A stretch of DNA of 25,802 nucleotides, taken from IMG/VR virus record IMGVR_UViG_3300049489_000091, positions 1 to 25,802 of that record. One strand, 5' to 3'. Position 1 is the stretch's first letter; each line of letters starts with the position of its first letter. The position numbers and the translations under genes are program-made. This DNA comes from a virus. Shown one piece after another: positions 18,137 through 25,802 of the stretch. The notes below the pieces were generated by a model. That model worked only from the letters and a program-made list of their open reading frames with translations. It was not told the origin of the DNA and searched no databases.

Positions 18137-18161
18137 AAATACGCCTATTGTTGACGTATTT
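18137..18161. repeat. Perfect 7-bp inverted repeat in the protease-portal divergent gap
   Basis: AAATACG (18137-18143) and CGTATTT (18155-18161) are perfect complements around an 11-base loop. The site sits just before the protease start and upstream of the divergent portal gene. It could be an operator or an mRNA leader hairpin; the rest of the 18124-18237 gap is AT-rich with candidate promoter boxes. Confidence 0.45.
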
Positions 18162-18185
18162 CATTAAATTGCTTGCACTTCAAAA

Positions 18186-18193
18186 CAAAAGTA
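18186..18193 (-). promoter_or_regulatory. Candidate -7 box for protease/capsid transcription
   Basis: The minus strand reads TACTTTTG, matching TAnnTTTG, about 60 bases upstream of the protease start in the only divergent gap of the late module. No clear -33 box is seen, so support is weak. Confidence 0.25.
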
Positions 18194-18215
18194 ACAATTA
18201 TTTTGATATTTTAAT

Positions 18216-18223
18216 TATTTTTG
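18216..18223 (+). promoter_or_regulatory. Candidate -7 box for the inverted portal gene
   Basis: TATTTTTG on the plus strand matches TAnnTTTG and lies 15 bases before the portal ATG. The leader would be only a few bases. A TTTG occurs upstream but at too short a spacing (10 bases). Weak evidence in AT-rich DNA. Confidence 0.25.
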
Positions 18224-18237
18224 AAAAAAAATGCTCG

Positions 18238-19461
18238 ATGATTAGATTCGGTAATATTTCCGATTGGGTTCAAAACATGTTCACTTTCGGCAAACGCTCC
18301 TACTTTATAAACAGATCCTACATATTCGGACAAAAAGGTGAAGTGTGGATACCGGTTAATCAGCCATACGCTTTATATAATGAAATTCCACAACTAAAAA
18401 CAGTTGTTGATAAAAAGGCTAAATTGTTTTCGAACATGGAGCTTATTTTGGTTAATAAAGAAACCAAAGAGCCTGTTGAGGATTTCGATTTGCAAAAACT
18501 TCTTGCAAAACCAAACGTGCTTCAATCATTCAATAACTTTTTAGAGGAATATAAAATACAAGAGCAAGTTTATGGAAACCAGTTCATGTATAAGAACCAA
18601 CCAAGTTCTTTACAAAAGTACCCGGTTGCTCTTTGGAATATCAGTCCTCGTTACTTAGCACCGTATTTTTCGGGTAAAGTATTCAATCAGGTTGATTTGA
18701 AAGAAATTTTCCCATACTATGTATATAATCAAAACGGCAACACAGCGAAATACGAATCGGAGTATGTAATGTATTCAAAAATAAACGATCTTGACAATCC
18801 TGTAATCGGATGCAGTCCTATTGTTTCGCTTCAAATGCCATTATCAAATATTAAAGGCAGTTATTCATATAGAAATGTAATCCTAACTGAGAAAGGTGCT
18901 ATCGGTATCTTAAGTAATAAATCAAAGGACGGTATGGGCGTTGTTCCGTTGTCGCCAAAAGAGAAAGAGGAACTTGAAAGGCAGTACACTAATGAGTATG
19001 GCGCAGGAGCTGGACAAAGACGTGTTCACGTAACCAATTCAAGCCTCGAATGGTCACCAATGACTTACCCGACAAAAGACTTAATGCTATTTGAGGAGGT
19101 CGATGCAGATATGTTAACGATAATTGACTTGTACGGACTTAATGTTAATATATTTTCAAACAAAAATAGCACGTACGAGAATGTTAAAAATGGCATAAAA
19201 CTTGCATATCAAGATACCATACAGCCGGAAGCAGATAAGTTTGCGCAAGCACTTACAATTTTCTTAAATATTGACAAGAAAAATGAACTGATTGCATCTT
19301 ACCAGCACATTACCATACTTCAAGAAGACAGACTAAGCAAAACACAAACACTTGAAAGCAAAATACGAGCCTTAACACAAGTAAGTCAGCTTGGATTAAT
19401 TGATGGTGCGTTTCTAAAGGATATAATTGAAACAGAGCTTAAACTTAATAATAATGATTAA
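18238..19461 (+). CDS. Portal protein, HK97/SPP1-type, on the opposite strand to the rest of the late genes
   Basis: 407 residues from ATG 18238; a longer TTG-started frame adds an unlikely hydrophobic leader. Portal features are clear: an N-terminal stretch with VNQPYALYNEIPQLKTVVDK, FNNFLEEYKIQEQVYGNQFM, the segment DNPVIGCSPIVSLQMPLSNI typical of HK97 portals (xGxSPLxxAxxxI), then YRNVILTEKGAIGILSNKSK, a Lys/Glu-rich stem, DTIQPEADKFAQALT and a C-terminal clip/crown helix. It forms the dodecameric ring at the capsid vertex. It is the only late gene on plus: divergent from the protease and overlapping the large-terminase 3' end by 17 bases tail to tail. Confidence 0.92.
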   Translation: MIRFGNISDWVQNMFTFGKRSYFINRSYIFGQKGEVWIPVNQPYALYNEIPQLKTVVDKKAKLFSNMELILVNKETKEPVEDFDLQKLLAKPNVLQSFNNFLEEYKIQEQVYGNQFMYKNQPSSLQKYPVALWNISPRYLAPYFSGKVFNQVDLKEIFPYYVYNQNGNTAKYESEYVMYSKINDLDNPVIGCSPIVSLQMPLSNIKGSYSYRNVILTEKGAIGILSNKSKDGMGVVPLSPKEKEELERQYTNEYGAGAGQRRVHVTNSSLEWSPMTYPTKDLMLFEEVDADMLTIIDLYGLNVNIFSNKNSTYENVKNGIKLAYQDTIQPEADKFAQALTIFLNIDKKNELIASYQHITILQEDRLSKTQTLESKIRALTQVSQLGLIDGAFLKDIIETELKLNNND

Positions 19462-22757: not shown

Positions 22758-22988
22758 TTAAAAAGGTGTTGGTTTGTTTTCGATTAATTTAACTTTTGAA
22801 TTTATTTCGTTTTTGTTTACAAAAATTCCTTTAATATAATACCCAATACTCCCACCCGATTTTACTTGTTTCAAAACAGTACCTCGCTTCCTGTTAACTA
22901 CTTTACGACAAGCTGTAATTACATAGTCAGGCTCATCCTTAAATTGCCACTTAATACTATAAGTTGTTGTTATTGTTATCTTTAACAT
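22758..22988 (-). CDS. Small unknown protein (76 aa)
   Basis: 76 residues, MLKITITTTYSIKWQFKDEP..., from ATG 22988. A frame from 23051 would add 21 residues encoded by the repeat region, so it is rejected. The protein is basic and beta-rich (DYVITACRKVVNRKRGTVLK, then GGSIGYYIKGIFVNKNEI), in the style of small phage proteins that describe 'WQFKxxPxYxxTxCxKxxN'. It is the first gene next to the methyltransferase array. Confidence 0.6.
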   Translation of the reverse strand: MLKITITTTYSIKWQFKDEPDYVITACRKVVNRKRGTVLKQVKSGGSIGYYIKGIFVNKNEINSKVKLIENKPTPF

Positions 22989-23003
22989 ATTGCTTAGGTA
23001 GTG

Positions 23004-23036
23004 TTGCCCAGTAGTTATGGGCAATAAAAAAGGGGC
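23004..23036. repeat. Left boundary repeat of the first methyltransferase unit
   Basis: GTTATGGGC-AA-TAAAAAAGGGGC at 23014-23036 matches the reverse complement of 23716-23738 at 21 of 23 positions, so the pair brackets the first methyltransferase gene. A local palindrome, TTGCCCA (23004-23010) with TGGGCAA (23018-23024), sits in the same site. It lies about 20 bases after the gene's stop. Confidence 0.75.
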
Positions 23037-23057
23037 TAACAGCCAATACATTCATAC

Positions 23058-23792
23058 TTAAAATAATTGCGTTTGTGCTGTTATCTCTTTAAATCGCTTT
23101 TGTGCATCGTTAAAATATGTCGTATCAATTTCCAATCCCACAAAGTCAAGCCCTGCATAATGTGCCGCAATAGCCGAACTGCCACTCCCTAAATGAGTAT
23201 CTAATACCTTTTGCCCTTTCTCCGCATATTCATCAAACAACCATTTGTAAAGGTTAATTGGCTTTTGTGTCGGATGTATTCGCACCTCTTTATTTTTCAT
23301 ATCTGCCTGAAGCATTCCATGCCAACGGTGCTTTACTTTTCTTACAGCAGTTTTGTAACTTGTCCAAGCCAATTCACAGTCAGCATATCCGTTATCGCCA
23401 TTAACCTTATCCCAAACAATCCAACAAGGGCTTGCAAAAGGTATTAGATTTATGAAGTGATTTGCTCCCCAGATAATTTGATTTTTACTAACCCTCATCA
23501 ACTCCGCAAAGTATTCAGGCGGTGGCGGTGTTTTGTCCCAATCTTTTTTCTCATAGGTTTTACACTTTGCCGCACTTGCTCCATATTGAGTTCCGCCTCT
23601 TTCATAGTTGCTTGCATTTATCCCATAAGGAACATCCACCACCGCCAAATCAAATTGCTTATCGTGGCAGTTTTTTAGATAATCCATACAATCCACATTA
23701 AGTAATTGAACAGCCGCCCCTTTTTTACAGCCCATAACAGCACCTTGCGGCAATGCCGGGGTTCCTGCGTCCTCTGTCTTATTTGTTTTCAT
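23058..23792 (-). CDS. Beta-class DNA methyltransferase, first of three
   Basis: 244 residues, ATG at 23792. The beta-class order is visible: motif IV early (DVPYG, residues 53-57), a central target-recognition region, HPTQKP (173-178), and the AdoMet-binding motif late (VLDTHLGSGSSAIAAH, about 196-211). Motif IV is DVPY rather than the usual DPPY. The enzyme should methylate adenine N6 or cytosine N4; the site cannot be told. It is paralogous to the next gene (shared WGxNxx, GDNxYADxELAWTS, LDTHLGSG). Residues about 11-21 (TPALPQGAVMG) are encoded by the repeat, and an ATG at 23735 inside the repeat is an alternative start. It may protect phage DNA from restriction. Confidence 0.85.
   Translation of the reverse strand: MKTNKTEDAGTPALPQGAVMGCKKGAAVQLLNVDCMDYLKNCHDKQFDLAVVDVPYGINASNYERGGTQYGASAAKCKTYEKKDWDKTPPPPEYFAELMRVSKNQIIWGANHFINLIPFASPCWIVWDKVNGDNGYADCELAWTSYKTAVRKVKHRWHGMLQADMKNKEVRIHPTQKPINLYKWLFDEYAEKGQKVLDTHLGSGSSAIAAHYAGLDFVGLEIDTTYFNDAQKRFKEITAQTQLF
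23716..23738. repeat. Right boundary repeat of the first methyltransferase unit
   Basis: Inverted partner of 23014-23036. On the minus strand it reads GTTATGGGC-TG-TAAAAAAGGGGC. It lies inside the 5' coding part of the first methyltransferase and forms the outer box of the hairpin site at 23730-23864. Confidence 0.75.
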
Positions 23793-23864
23793 ATTGTATT
23801 TTTAGATCGTTAGTTTTCTACCTCTTTCTCCCGGCACTTCCGCAAGCTGCAAACCGTTAGCGGC
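23730..23864. repeat. attC-like hairpin site 1, between methyltransferase units 1 and 2
   Basis: The outer boxes are GCCCATAAC (23730-23738) and GTTAGCGGC (23856-23864), 7 of 9 complementary. The inner arms are 23740-23759 and 23831-23850 (CCGGCACTTCCGCAAGCTGC), 17 of 20 complementary. The loop is 71 bases and holds the start codon of the first methyltransferase. Spacers between outer and inner arms are 1 and 5 bases. A 135-base imperfect palindrome with nested box pairs is the form of an integron attC site; that identity is inferred. Confidence 0.6.
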
Positions 23865-23869
23865 AATGC
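23856..23869. repeat. Left boundary repeat of the second methyltransferase unit
   Basis: GTTAGCGGCAATGC; its reverse complement matches 24513-24526 at 13 of 14 positions, so the pair brackets the second methyltransferase gene. Confidence 0.7.
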
Positions 23870-23878
23870 TACGGACTG

Positions 23879-24580
23879 CTAAAACATAGTCAGTTGTGCT
23901 GTAAAATTTTTCCATCTTGTTTCCTGCATTTCAAAATAGTCCTTATCAATTTCAGTCCCCACAAATATTTTACCCGCCTTATGAGCAGCTATTCTGCTTC
24001 CGCCACTACCCAAATGAGTATCTAAAATCAAATTTCCTTCGCTCATAAATTCTTTAATTATCCATTCGTAAAGTTGTATTGGCTTTTGCGTTGGGTGTAT
24101 TCTGTCAATATCAAACTTCTCCTTTGCATTTCCACCGCTCCAAAATTTACTGAACTTTTTTACCACCTTATCAAATGAAGTCCAAGCCAATTCCCCATCT
24201 GCATAAGAATTATCTCCAGTTCCTTTATCCCAAAAAATCCAGCATCTTGAAGGTGGCAAAAATTCAGTCATATAATTTCCTCCCCACACAATTTGATTTT
24301 GAGATACTCTGAATAGCTGCTCCCAATACTCAGGTGCAGGAATTGATGTGTCCCAATCATTTTGTTTATGGAATTTTGAAGGTCTTACCCTTGTGCCACT
24401 TTTAAAGTTTACACTTCCTGCACCTATCCCATAAGGCGGGTCTACGATGGCAAGATGGAAAAATTTATCAGGCACTTGTTTCATAAATTCGATGCAGTCC
24501 ATATTGAACACCGCACTGCCGCTAACAAGGGCTTGCTGCAATAGCGGGTTTTGTGCATCTATGATAGTTTTGTCGTTCAT
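23879..24580 (-). CDS. Beta-class DNA methyltransferase, second of three
   Basis: 233 residues, ATG at 24580. Motif IV is canonical DPPYG (47-51), HPTQKP is at 162-167 and the AdoMet motif LDTHLGSGGSRIAAH starts near 186, giving beta-class order. It is clearly paralogous to the previous methyltransferase over most of its length, including SQNQIVWGGNYM and GDNSYADGELAWTS. The N-terminal peptide PLLQQALVSG is encoded by the hairpin repeat and parallels PALPQGAVMG in the neighbour. A shorter protein from Met27 is possible, since the family core begins near NMDCIEFM. Its stop lies about 15 bases from the boundary box GTTAGCGGC. Confidence 0.88.
   Translation of the reverse strand: MNDKTIIDAQNPLLQQALVSGSAVFNMDCIEFMKQVPDKFFHLAIVDPPYGIGAGSVNFKSGTRVRPSKFHKQNDWDTSIPAPEYWEQLFRVSQNQIVWGGNYMTEFLPPSRCWIFWDKGTGDNSYADGELAWTSFDKVVKKFSKFWSGGNAKEKFDIDRIHPTQKPIQLYEWIIKEFMSEGNLILDTHLGSGGSRIAAHKAGKIFVGTEIDKDYFEMQETRWKNFTAQLTMF
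24513..24526. repeat. Right boundary repeat of the second methyltransferase unit
   Basis: GCACTGCCGCTAAC, the inverted partner of 23856-23869, within the 5' coding part of the second methyltransferase. Confidence 0.7.
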
Positions 24581-24655
24581 TTTAAGTTTTGTATTTCAAT
24601 TAAACATTTGTGGTTTAAGCCCGCTACTGACAGCAAGCCCCGTCACGTTAGCGGT
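24518..24655. repeat. attC-like hairpin site 2, between unit 2 and the gene-free unit
   Basis: The outer boxes are GCCGCTAAC (24518-24526) and GTTAGCGGT (24647-24655), 8 of 9 complementary. The inner arms are GGGCTTGCTGCAATAGCGGG (24529-24548) and the 21-base partner 24620-24640, 19 of 20 complementary with one unpaired A. The loop is again exactly 71 bases and holds the start codon of the second methyltransferase. Spacers are 2 and 6 bases. The unpaired base and nested boxes are typical of integron attC sites, but membership is inferred. Confidence 0.65.
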
Positions 24656-24744
24656 AATGCCACCGCCCTAAATAACGCTTCGGGCATGGAAGCTATTCCT
24701 CGCGTTGCCAACCCTTCGCGGTGGACACTACCGCTAACAACGTG
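24644..24744. repeat. Gene-free repeat-bounded unit (about 100-bp palindrome)
   Basis: The left arm 24644-24666 (CACGTTAGCGGTAATGCCAC...) and the right arm 24718-24744 are complementary apart from a 3-base and a 1-base insertion and one mismatch. The 51-base interior holds no gene but nests further short stems, AACGC/GCGTT and GGAA/TTCC. It stands in the series of repeat-bounded units as an empty member. The 24581-24829 gap is otherwise without genes. Confidence 0.65.
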
Positions 24745-24765
24745 TATAACCAATGCAAAAAGGCG
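24742..24765. repeat. Left outer boundary repeat of the third methyltransferase unit
   Basis: GTGTATAACCAATGC followed by AAAAAGGCG. Its reverse complement is found at 25644-25667 with 23 of 24 positions identical, so the pair brackets the third methyltransferase. Confidence 0.8.
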
Positions 24766-24803
24766 TTGACGTGTGTGCTTCGTAGTGAGGTGCACAGTGA
24801 AAG

Positions 24804-24821
24804 AAAAATATTTTTAAATGC
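24804..24821. repeat. Left inner inverted repeat of the third methyltransferase unit
   Basis: AAAAATATTTTTAAATGC, 18 bases, is perfectly complementary to 25597-25614. It lies 8 bases beyond the gene's stop codon, and the partner overlaps the start codon. Confidence 0.8.
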
Positions 24822-24829
24822 CCCCGCGC

Positions 24830-25600
24830 TCATGGAAATACTAATTGAGGTTTGGACAATGCGATAGAAATTCTCTTGATTGAATCATCGTAATATTCTT
24901 TTTTGGTTTCAGAGCCAATAAACTTACGTCCTTCAATTATACAGGCTTCTGCGGTTGTTCCTGAACCACTGTACCCATCAAAAACCGTTTCACCTGGATT
25001 TGAGTAAGTTCTAACCAACCATCGAAATAAATCAAGTGGCTTTTGTGTTGGGTGGTCAATCTTATCAACTGAGTTTCCAATGACAGCCGTGCAAGCAATT
25101 ACACTTCTCGGATAAGACTTATTTGGGTCAAGGTCTGAAACGTAATCTTTTTGCTTACCATAGTTTTCTGTCTGCGGTTTCATTGTTTGTCCCTTGAAAT
25201 TTCTGTCAAGTTTATCCTGAGTGAATTGAGGGTTATATGTAATCTTGCCACGTCCAAAAACTATGATATTCTCATGTTGTCTCAATGGCATTATATCAGC
25301 GTTCAGGTGTCCAGTTGGTCTTTTCTTATCCCAAATAAGTTCATATTTGAAAAATCCTTGCCGTGATATTACTAAGTGAGAAGTGAAGGGTTGAGAAGCT
25401 GTAAACACAAAAGCACCGTTTGGTTTTACAACGCGTTCCCACTCTAACCACATTTCAGCAAGGTTGATAGGTTTATCCCAACCGTTCTGAGTAGTTGCAT
25501 ACGGTGGGTCAGTCAACATCAAGTCAACGGACGCATCGGGCAGACTTTTAAGTAAGTCCAAACAATTACAATTCAGTAATTCAATTCCCCCGCTTCGCAT
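24830..25600 (-). CDS. Beta-class DNA methyltransferase, third of three
   Basis: 256 residues, ATG at 25600, directly after an in-frame TAA, so the start is secure. Motif IV DPPY is at 31-34, HPTQKP at 183-188 and the AdoMet motif VFDGYSGSGTTAEAC at about 206-220. The order is again beta class, N6-adenine or N4-cytosine. The central region (ELIWDKKRPTGHLNADIMPL, HENIIVFGRGKITYNPQF) differs strongly from the other two, so it is a separate lineage of the N6_N4_Mtase family and probably has a different target site. It is bounded by two nested inverted repeat pairs. No restriction enzyme gene is visible nearby. Confidence 0.9.
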   Translation of the reverse strand: MRSGGIELLNCNCLDLLKSLPDASVDLMLTDPPYATTQNGWDKPINLAEMWLEWERVVKPNGAFVFTASQPFTSHLVISRQGFFKYELIWDKKRPTGHLNADIMPLRQHENIIVFGRGKITYNPQFTQDKLDRNFKGQTMKPQTENYGKQKDYVSDLDPNKSYPRSVIACTAVIGNSVDKIDHPTQKPLDLFRWLVRTYSNPGETVFDGYSGSGTTAEACIIEGRKFIGSETKKEYYDDSIKRISIALSKPQLVFP

Positions 25601-25614
25601 TTAAAAATATTTTT
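25597..25614. repeat. Right inner inverted repeat of the third methyltransferase unit
   Basis: Perfect 18-base inverted partner of 24804-24821. On the minus strand its ATG is the start codon of the third methyltransferase. Confidence 0.8.
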
Positions 25615-25643
25615 AGTGTGTGTTCCATAGTTACTATTGTGTT

Positions 25644-25667
25644 CGCCTTTTTGCACTGGTTATACAC
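25644..25667. repeat. Right outer boundary repeat of the third methyltransferase unit
   Basis: On the minus strand GTGTATAACCAGTGC followed by AAAAAGGCG, partner of 24742-24765 with one mismatch. It is preceded on the minus strand by GCCCTTGCAGG, similar to the inner arm of hairpin site 2. Confidence 0.8.
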
Positions 25668-25688
25668 TTGATACATTACCTGCAAGGG

Positions 25689-25802
25689 CTAAAGACGAAC
25701 TTTATCTATAAATTTACAGGTGTTTTTCATTGGATTGTAGTCTATTTTCAGTATAATATAATCGTCTTTGTTTTCATTTTGTTTCTTCATATAATCACCG
25801 CA
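25689..25802 (-). CDS. C-terminal end of a gene running off the right edge, unknown
   Basis: An open frame enters from the right edge and stops at TAG 25689. The visible end reads DDYIILKIDYNPMKNTCKFI then DKVRL. It could be the end of a longer gene, or a 33-residue peptide from an in-frame ATG at about 25790. The stop lies about 20 bases from the outer boundary repeat of the third methyltransferase unit, the same spacing as the other genes of the array show on their stop side. No family can be named from so short a piece. Confidence 0.4.
   Translation of the reverse strand, partial: CGDYMKKQNENKDDYIILKIDYNPMKNTCKFIDKVRL

Follow-up and report, generated by a model that had tools for sequence, protein, structure and literature searches.

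The window, by which we mean the whole 25,802-nt stretch analysed (IMG/VR record IMGVR_UViG_3300049489_000091, a 25.8-kb fragment), carries at 22900-25802 three N6_N4 methyltransferase genes (PF01555) on the minus strand, each in a unit bounded by inverted repeats, and one further repeat-bounded unit without a gene. An earlier note, made from the sequence alone, had reported these repeats, the three same-strand methyltransferases and the empty unit, and all were found where it had placed them. The inverted pairs lie at 23014-23036/23716-23738 (91% identity), 23856-23869/24513-24526 (93%) and 24742-24765/25644-25667 (96%), the last enclosing a nested pair around the same gene (24804-24821/25597-25614, 100%), and a palindrome of about 92 nt lies at 24647-24738. 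Two inverted pairs of at least 21/23 within 1 kb were present in 22900-25802, and none in twelve dinucleotide shuffles; at a threshold of at least 13/14, eight pairs were present, and one in total over the twelve shuffles.

The note had counted four consecutive units and set their limits at the repeats. All four are indeed repeat-bounded and the boxes are real, but the long stem-loops between units, at 24646-24527 and 23855-23739, had been overlooked and belong to the cassettes. In the gene direction, a full cassette consists of a hairpin of about 117 nt, a 15-nt box (S box), the methyltransferase gene and a matching inverted box (E box). Neither the gene-less unit nor the third gene unit has a recognisable hairpin, which leaves two full cassettes among the four units. 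In both of these, the start codon of the gene lies inside the hairpin.

Cassette 2 (23856..24646, minus strand) was recognised by its boxes and its site match. Its attC-like stem-loop (24527..24646, minus) is supported by the site model, the DNA fold and the covariation of the family: the site scored 119.6 bits (E 3e-27) with the covariance model, of whose training set it was a member, and the DNA fold of 24513-24660 on the minus strand gave z = -5.98. The S box GTTAGCGGCAGTGC (24513..24526, minus) and the E box GCATTGCCGCTAAC (23856..23869, minus) form the inverted repeat. The enclosed gene (23879..24580, minus) encodes 233 aa (PF01555 6e-16, phrog_23224 4e-38); its start codon at 24580 is in the loop, and the hairpin encodes the first 18 residues, MNDKTIIDAQNPLLQQAL. 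The unit boundaries in the window were taken from relatives, by analogy with phage indels, and on this basis the crossover of cassette 2 is presumed to occur at AAC|G on both sides.

Cassette 1 (23014..23855, minus) is the last in the array and is followed by AAC|TACTGGG. Its attC-like stem-loop (23739..23855, minus), with the start codon at 23792 in the loop, scored 98.0 bits (E 5e-22; also a training member), and the DNA fold of 23725-23869 on the minus strand gave z = -2.75. The inverted repeat is formed by the S box GTTATGGGCTGTAAAAAAGGGGC (23716..23738, minus), here extended to 23 nt, and the E box GCCCCTTTTTTATTGCCCATAAC (23014..23036, minus). The gene (23058..23792, minus) encodes 244 aa (PF01555 5e-13, phrog_23224 8e-48), the first 18 of which, MKTNKTEDAGTPALPQGA, come from the hairpin. 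Beyond the cassette, the array ends on the phage backbone at an attI-like AAC|TACTGGGCAACACTACC (23000..23013, minus), assigned from the same AAC|T junction in other phages.

The gene-less unit (24647..24738, minus), a palindrome running from the S box GTTAGCGGTAGTG to the E box CATTACCGCTAAC, has no hairpin of its own; its sole model match was 6.7 bits at 24725-24756, and it is probably a remnant. The third methyltransferase unit (24742..25667, minus) was delimited by its 24-nt (96%) and nested 18-nt (100%) inverted repeats; its boxes are variant (GTGTATAACCAGTGC) and the site model recognised no hairpin. Its gene (24830..25600, minus) encodes 256 aa (PF01555 8e-31).

Site family and box matching

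The first viral scan, using GGCATTRCCGCTAACG, returned 90 stretches, of which about 8 were real and about 40 were expected by chance. For this reason the search moved on to paired patterns and finally to a covariance model. Within the site family, 18 of the 19 inner-stem pairs changed on both sides, and the covariation score was 0.443, compared with 0.158 for shuffled and at most 0.151 for slid alignments. The AAC-to-GTT spacing was fixed, mostly at 113-122 nt. The boxes are 15 nt long, and every set shows the same single conserved mismatch, at position 11; only GTT/AAC is constant and the middle is cassette-specific. The site model was strand-polar (119.6 vs 25.9 bits). Covariation, DNA folds, the position-11 mismatch and the strand-polar scores all agree with the imperfect, strand-asymmetric hairpin of integron sites.

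The key inference of the earlier note was that the repeats match best within a pair. This holds: the two boxes of a unit were identical at the 6 variable positions in 84/102 comparisons, and no such match was seen across sites. The within-unit score averaged 5.58 against 3.01 when shuffled (maximum 3.38), and was 3.26 across a site. The result was repeated in 64 further chromosomal units (5.55 vs 2.42) and in 52 phage units (5.25 vs 2.80), the latter set partly overlapping the first. Rfam gave no match in the window. A regular expression for canonical attC also gave 0 matches, but it likewise gave 0 beside canonical Bacteroidota IntI loci and so carries no information.

Searches with the covariance model placed the sites in many Bacteroidota phages and in 104/248 sampled Bacteroidota genomes, compared with 2/120 Bacillota genomes. 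Many unrelated genes were flanked by the same sites in both phages and chromosomes, which answers the question of the note whether other genes occur between the boxes. The idea that the repeats are specific to methyltransferases was accordingly rejected; only 10/50 relatives of methyltransferase 2 adjoin a site. Genes in chromosomal arrays are read towards the hairpin, as integron genes are, whereas all phage genes are read outwards from it, often with the start codon inside. Transfer of a cassette between phage and chromosome was not seen at the DNA level in the compared set, where the best match was 78% over 167 nt.

Unit mobility and the recombinase beside chromosomal arrays

When related cultured Flavobacterium phages were compared, 27 distinct indels were found, 23 of which broke at the E box, at AAC|G; chance under a generous criterion gave a mean of 8 and a maximum of 17 of 1000. 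Near-identical phages gained or lost whole units exactly at the box, as exemplified by a 439-bp unit whose flanks were identical over 8315 nt (100%) on one side and nearly so over 5252 nt (99.96%) on the other. This gain and loss, together with the unrelated cargo, excludes a fixed, vertically inherited locus of methyltransferases only. One backbone anchor was abutted by nine different cassettes among 16 Flavobacterium phages. The AAC|T junction also ended the arrays of L093, L094, L023 and L043 and of the 16 Flavobacterium phages, and the array end of the filifjonk-like phages reads AAC|TACAATATT. Furthermore, two array-bearing genomes had a 1.3-kb cassette in common (99.3%) with identical boundaries. 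The indels and this shared cassette agree with the integron rule that a cassette is a gene plus a site, joined at G|TT.

In chromosomes, the array is found 3' of a tyrosine recombinase gene, and its sites are always on the opposite strand. In most of the about ten genomes read, the array starts at an attI-like A|GTT about 80-120 nt 3' of the recombinase stop, a junction that, judged from sequence, would correspond to the attI next to an integrase gene. The recombinase grouped with IntI, apart from Xer, with support of 100/100; monophyly of the integrases lacking the IntI patch had 44% support and was not rejected (p-AU 0.517). These patchless integrases fall outside the IntI family with its patch: TIGR02249 scored 190-211 bits against a cut-off of 265, with the match split in two, and the insertion of about 43 residues found in IntI1 between KGxKDR and HxLRH was absent in 17/17 members of the group. 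They have an extra N-terminal domain of about 70 aa; Pedobacter arcticus and Flavobacterium sp. J49 are examples of genomes that encode a patchless integrase. The integrase profile gave no clear match in 6/20 array-rich genomes and a match in 3/20 genomes without sites.

As the note had remarked, no integrase is visible in the window: PF00589 gave no match at E<=1 in the 25.8-kb record. With two sites and no such match in this fragment, the locus has the composition of a CALIN (at least two sites, no integrase nearby). Five other array phages likewise yielded no integrase, and hence a host enzyme must be assumed.

Alternative explanations and known systems

That phages can carry integron cassettes together with methyltransferases is already known (Qi et al. 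2023, PMC9892861): CALINs occur in virulent phages including Polaribacter P12002L and Tetrasphaera TJE1, and their sites are canonical attC, of which five out of six that were assayed were recombined by IntI1. The present locus resembles these in being a phage-borne array of DNA methyltransferase genes without an integrase, and could be an ordinary CALIN moved by a canonical, patch-bearing IntI of the host; such IntI are common in Bacteroidota (TIGR02249 above the cut-off in 70/248 genomes). We consider this unlikely. The canonical R box, RYYYAAC/GTTRRRY, fits 0/52 phage and 7/64 chromosomal units, the site model matches nothing in P12002L, in TJE1 or around seven canonical IntI loci, and in array-rich genomes it is the patchless recombinase that adjoins the arrays. 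In addition, the only complete Bacteroidetes integron reported by IntegronFinder 2 is that of Salinibacter (PMC9024848), an indication that the present arrays escape its attC model. The 17 CALIN phages of Qi et al. may nevertheless include some of those studied here.

Phage genomes are mosaics, the array phages examined lack an integrase, and the hairpins, which carry start signals, may have been kept for a role in expression; the pattern might then arise by homologous or illegitimate recombination between such regulatory stem-loops at conserved gene boundaries, with no site-specific step. This seems very unlikely, because breakpoints fall together at AAC|G even where no more than 5-7 nt are shared, boxes match within a unit and chromosomes hold integrase-linked arrays of the same sites. 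The inverted terminal repeats of 14-24 nt on each unit would also suit transposon-like or MITE-like elements with hitchhiking methyltransferases. However, insertions occurred only beside another unit (AAC|G) or at one anchor, indels showed no target-site duplication beyond the shared box, the annotated proteins of the window include no transposase, and the termini differ between units yet match within them; this explanation is thus extremely improbable.

We therefore regard the locus as very likely a short cassette array belonging to a site-specific recombination system of Bacteroidota that resembles the integron. Like sedentary chromosomal integrons (IntI, attI and attC), the system has a tyrosine recombinase adjoining the array, an attI-like start, cassettes of a gene plus a folded site with diverse cargo, crossover at G|TT in the R' box, R boxes that match within a cassette, and a strand-asymmetric hairpin with conserved mismatches. 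Unlike them, it has an integrase with the extra N-terminal domain and without the IntI-specific insertion, 15-nt boxes with a cassette-specific middle, and an array at the 3' end of the co-directional integrase gene. It thus appears to act like an integron while lacking two of the membership features tested, the IntI patch and the GTTRRRY boxes. The view of the note stands as to the array, its box pairs and the missing integrase, but this is not an ordinary integron, the phage genes also being inverted relative to chromosomal arrays.

Smyshlyaev et al. 2021 (PMC8138268) described an integron-like subgroup of tyrosine recombinases in which conservation of the integron-specific insertion is incomplete, although they regard this insertion as essential for integrons to function; unlike the present integrases, members without it are given no array or site in the available text. 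The Baltic Flavobacterium phages of Nilsson et al. 2020 (PMC7077304), whose plating differences were tied to the presence of one methyltransferase, hold 10-16 of the present sites each. That paper does not mention integrons, and the cassette structure of the variable methyltransferase region is added here. No description of the site family was found in the open-licence PMC literature; the sites, their integrase and the inverted cassettes of the phages seem to be new.

Proposed mechanism and significance

Sequence data establish the site family, the limits and the mobility of its units, the attI-like AAC|T at the end of the array and the IntI-sister recombinase beside chromosomal arrays. In the mechanism we propose, a phage cassette would comprise a hairpin with translation start signals, the 15-nt S box, the gene and the matching E box, which is inverted and has AAC at its end. 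Exchange of cassettes would take place by recombination at AAC|G, which is C|GTT on the other strand and the integron R' crossover position. The recombinase, presumably of the host cell and not of the phage, would act on the folded single-stranded site, new cassettes would enter at the attI-like anchor of the phage backbone, and the methyltransferases may protect phage DNA from host restriction. More broadly, it is reasonably likely that this is a second widespread integron lineage of Bacteroidota, in which an IntI-sister integrase recombines folded sites without the "essential" insertion, and phages exploit it through anchors resembling attI and through inverted cassettes that form a pool of their own, the site giving a start codon and an N-terminal leader to the captured gene.

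In earlier reports complete integrons are rare among Bacteroidota, and the insertion in IntI is described as essential. An insertion-free sister integrase linked to hundreds of hairpin sites would make it possible to test how integron recombination arose and what it minimally requires. In the phage arrays viruses acquire genes, probably by way of the recombination system of their host, and methyltransferases are one of the main cargoes. The published plating differences of Flavobacterium phages (PMC7077304) already connect one of these genes with evasion of restriction by the host. If true, the site as a donor of start codons would be a new way of expressing a captured gene.

Cassette units in the phage record

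The window is a complete virus record of 25,802 bases. Its phage late region, with terminase, prohead protease, capsid and tape measure, occupies mainly the minus strand, and three N6_N4 methyltransferases lie upstream of that region. The portal gene (18148-19461) lies on the plus strand between the minus-strand terminase and prohead protease genes; an inverted portal in a late region is unusual. Every inverted repeat that an earlier note had named was present in the window, far above chance. What the note missed was a plan common to the two lower units, with a stem-loop of about 117 nt ahead of the first box in the gene direction (cassette 2, 24646-23856, and cassette 1, 23855-23014; both on the minus strand). 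The ATG of each gene lies within the loop, exactly 54 nt before the box; accordingly, the hairpin encodes 18 residues of each of the two genes (MNDKTIIDAQNPLLQQAL and MKTNKTEDAGTPALPQGA). In the gene-less unit (24647-24738) and the third methyltransferase unit (24742-25667), boxes were observed and no recognisable hairpin was found by scanning with R1, a covariance model of the hairpin site built on 25 sites. Two nested inverted repeats, of 24 nt and 18 nt, enclose this third methyltransferase, whose start codon falls within the inner repeat; it may represent a separate type of unit, or a cassette whose hairpin has been lost.

From four units, the earlier note had also proposed that boxes pair within a unit, and larger sets bore this out. 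The six variable bases of the end boxes were all identical in 84 of 102 units (mean, 5.58 of 6; shuffled control, mean 3.01 and maximum 3.38), whereas boxes facing each other across one site matched at a mean of only 3.26 of 6. For another 64 chromosomal units the values were 5.55 and, when shuffled, 2.42; for 52 phage units, some of them shared with the first set, they were 5.25 and 2.80. The match between boxes spans 15 nt, in which position 11 is a conserved mismatch.

The site family and movement of its units

By pattern scans, the same arrangement was found in other viral contigs and in genomes of Flavobacterium, Pedobacter, Chryseobacterium and further Bacteroidota. Compensatory change at 18 of the 19 inner-stem pairs supports the structure of the site, and the covariation score was 0.443 against 0.158 when shuffled and at most 0.151 with slid partners. 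The AAC-to-GTT distance across the site is mostly 113-122 nt. The richest genome gave at least 143 R1 sites. In an evenly drawn sample of 248 Bacteroidota genomes, 104 had at least one R1 site at E ≤ 1e-8, and about 60 of these combined two or more sites with a best E ≤ 1e-12. Among 120 Bacillota genomes, R1 gave two matches, each single and weak. A contig binned as Bifidobacterium breve (L101, CALPIE020000117.1) has a Bacteroidota-type cassette array, and this placement is probably a binning error.

The units are mobile. Sixteen related cultured Flavobacterium phages carry 10-16 sites each. Comparing them gave 27 distinct indels; in 23 the breakpoint is the E box, at AAC|G, and the remaining four lie, by position, away from the array. 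A single 439-bp unit distinguishes phage sniff9-1 from sniff9-2, between flanks of 8315 nt (100% identical) and 5252 nt (99.96%). This insertion consists of hairpin, S box, gene and E box, indicating that the hairpin moves together with the gene it starts. Nine different cassettes adjoin the backbone anchor TACAATATTACATG among the 16 phages. On chromosomes, a 1.3-kb cassette common to two sampled genomes (99.3% identity) extends from its GTT box to the next CC|GTT. When both are written on one strand, the crossovers of phages and chromosomes coincide, at a position equivalent to the integron G|TT. The array ends at AAC|T in the window, in four other array phages (L093, L094, L023 and L043) and in the Flavobacterium phages, which on the other strand reads A|GTT, like the chromosomal attI. 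The Muminvirus and Lillamyvirus phages of Nilsson et al. (PMC7077304) have methyltransferase genes in or near such arrays.

The site is polar, R1 giving 119.6 versus 25.9 bits on opposite strands of one window site. Relative to this polarity, phage cassettes are inverted versus chromosomal ones. Chromosomal genes point toward the hairpin, as in the integron (54/54 in the first set and 42/46 in the second), and phage genes point out of it (22/22, and 36/36 in a larger, overlapping set), as did all ten viral loci having a methyltransferase relative and an adjacent site. A hairpin ATG opened a frame of at least 40 codons beyond the box at 32 of 74 phage sites (3 in the opposite direction) and at 20 of 185 chromosomal sites. 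Unrelated phage proteins accordingly start with related leaders (for example ..PPFCQTDVSGSAF, ..PPLLIADVSGS and ..PAFAKPLLPAV). The chromosomal cargo is diverse, including a PvuRts1I-like modification-dependent nuclease and a TerC protein.

A linked integrase and the relation to integrons

Of the first nine array genomes, six encode a tyrosine recombinase of about 350-410 aa close to an array on the same contig. When its N-terminal part was used as a profile, matches over the N-terminal domain appeared in about 14 of 20 genomes rich in arrays and in 3 of 20 lacking them. Gene and array lie on one contig in eleven genomes, and in every one of these the array follows the 3' end of the gene and its sites occupy the opposite strand. 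In most cases read, the box of the first unit starts at A|GTT, 80-120 nt past the stop codon and often behind a TATAA motif; by its sequence, this junction is an attI-like place. Against the integron-integrase model TIGR02249, the recombinases scored 190-211 bits (cut-off, 265) with the match split in two, because the integron-specific insertion is absent. In the tree, these patchless proteins grouped with IntI against Xer (100/100) and IntI formed one clade (100/100), a single patchless clade being neither supported nor rejected. The patchless integrases of L163, G052:C65 and G149:C98 have 570-700 aa, with the N-terminal W..S..W..P domain apparently repeated; this domain weakly resembles DUF5710 in one member only.

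The earlier note had seen no integrase, and a PF00589 search likewise found no such protein in the window, nor in five other array phages. The best-ranked phage matches to the integrase showed 36-39% identity in the catalytic part only. A full-length copy of the patchless integrase, at 64% identity, is present on a Chryseobacterium oryzae plasmid (L213, NZ_CP094530.1); IS91-type elements lie nearby, and no site could be recognised in the vicinity of the gene. Canonical IntI, above the TIGR02249 cut-off, occurred in 70 of the 248 sampled Bacteroidota genomes, far more commonly than literature on complete genomes suggests. No R1 sites were found around seven canonical Bacteroidota IntI loci.

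Qi et al. (PMC9892861, 2023) reported that phages carry integron cassettes with methyltransferases; R1 did not match the sites of their Bacteroidota phage example P12002L or of TJE1. IntegronFinder 2 (PMC9024848) found the Salinibacter integron as its sole Bacteroidetes case, in contrast to the arrays of dozens to hundreds of present sites in Bacteroidota. In passages on integron-like recombinases, Smyshlyaev et al. (PMC8138268) describe the insertion as not fully conserved and assign no sites there. In the open-licence papers searched, neither this family of sites nor phage cassettes that are inverted and start in a hairpin were found described.

At the level of sequence, these comparisons establish the site, the units and their exact boundaries, their mobility, the linked recombinase and the attI-like ends. 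The system works like an integron; it departs from integrons in two defining features, as the IntI insertion is absent and the boxes do not fit GTTRRRY, and we hence call it an integron-like sister system. The patchless integrase of the host would recombine folded single-stranded sites while the phage replicates, the attI-like end of the phage would be the entry point of cassettes, and selection would retain those whose hairpin supplies a translation start. Nilsson et al. (PMC7077304) reported that those of the Flavobacterium phage group above that plate poorly on strain LMO6 are without a specific methyltransferase, and the differences in plating were put down to one methyltransferase. The methyltransferase cargo is consistent with escape from restriction.
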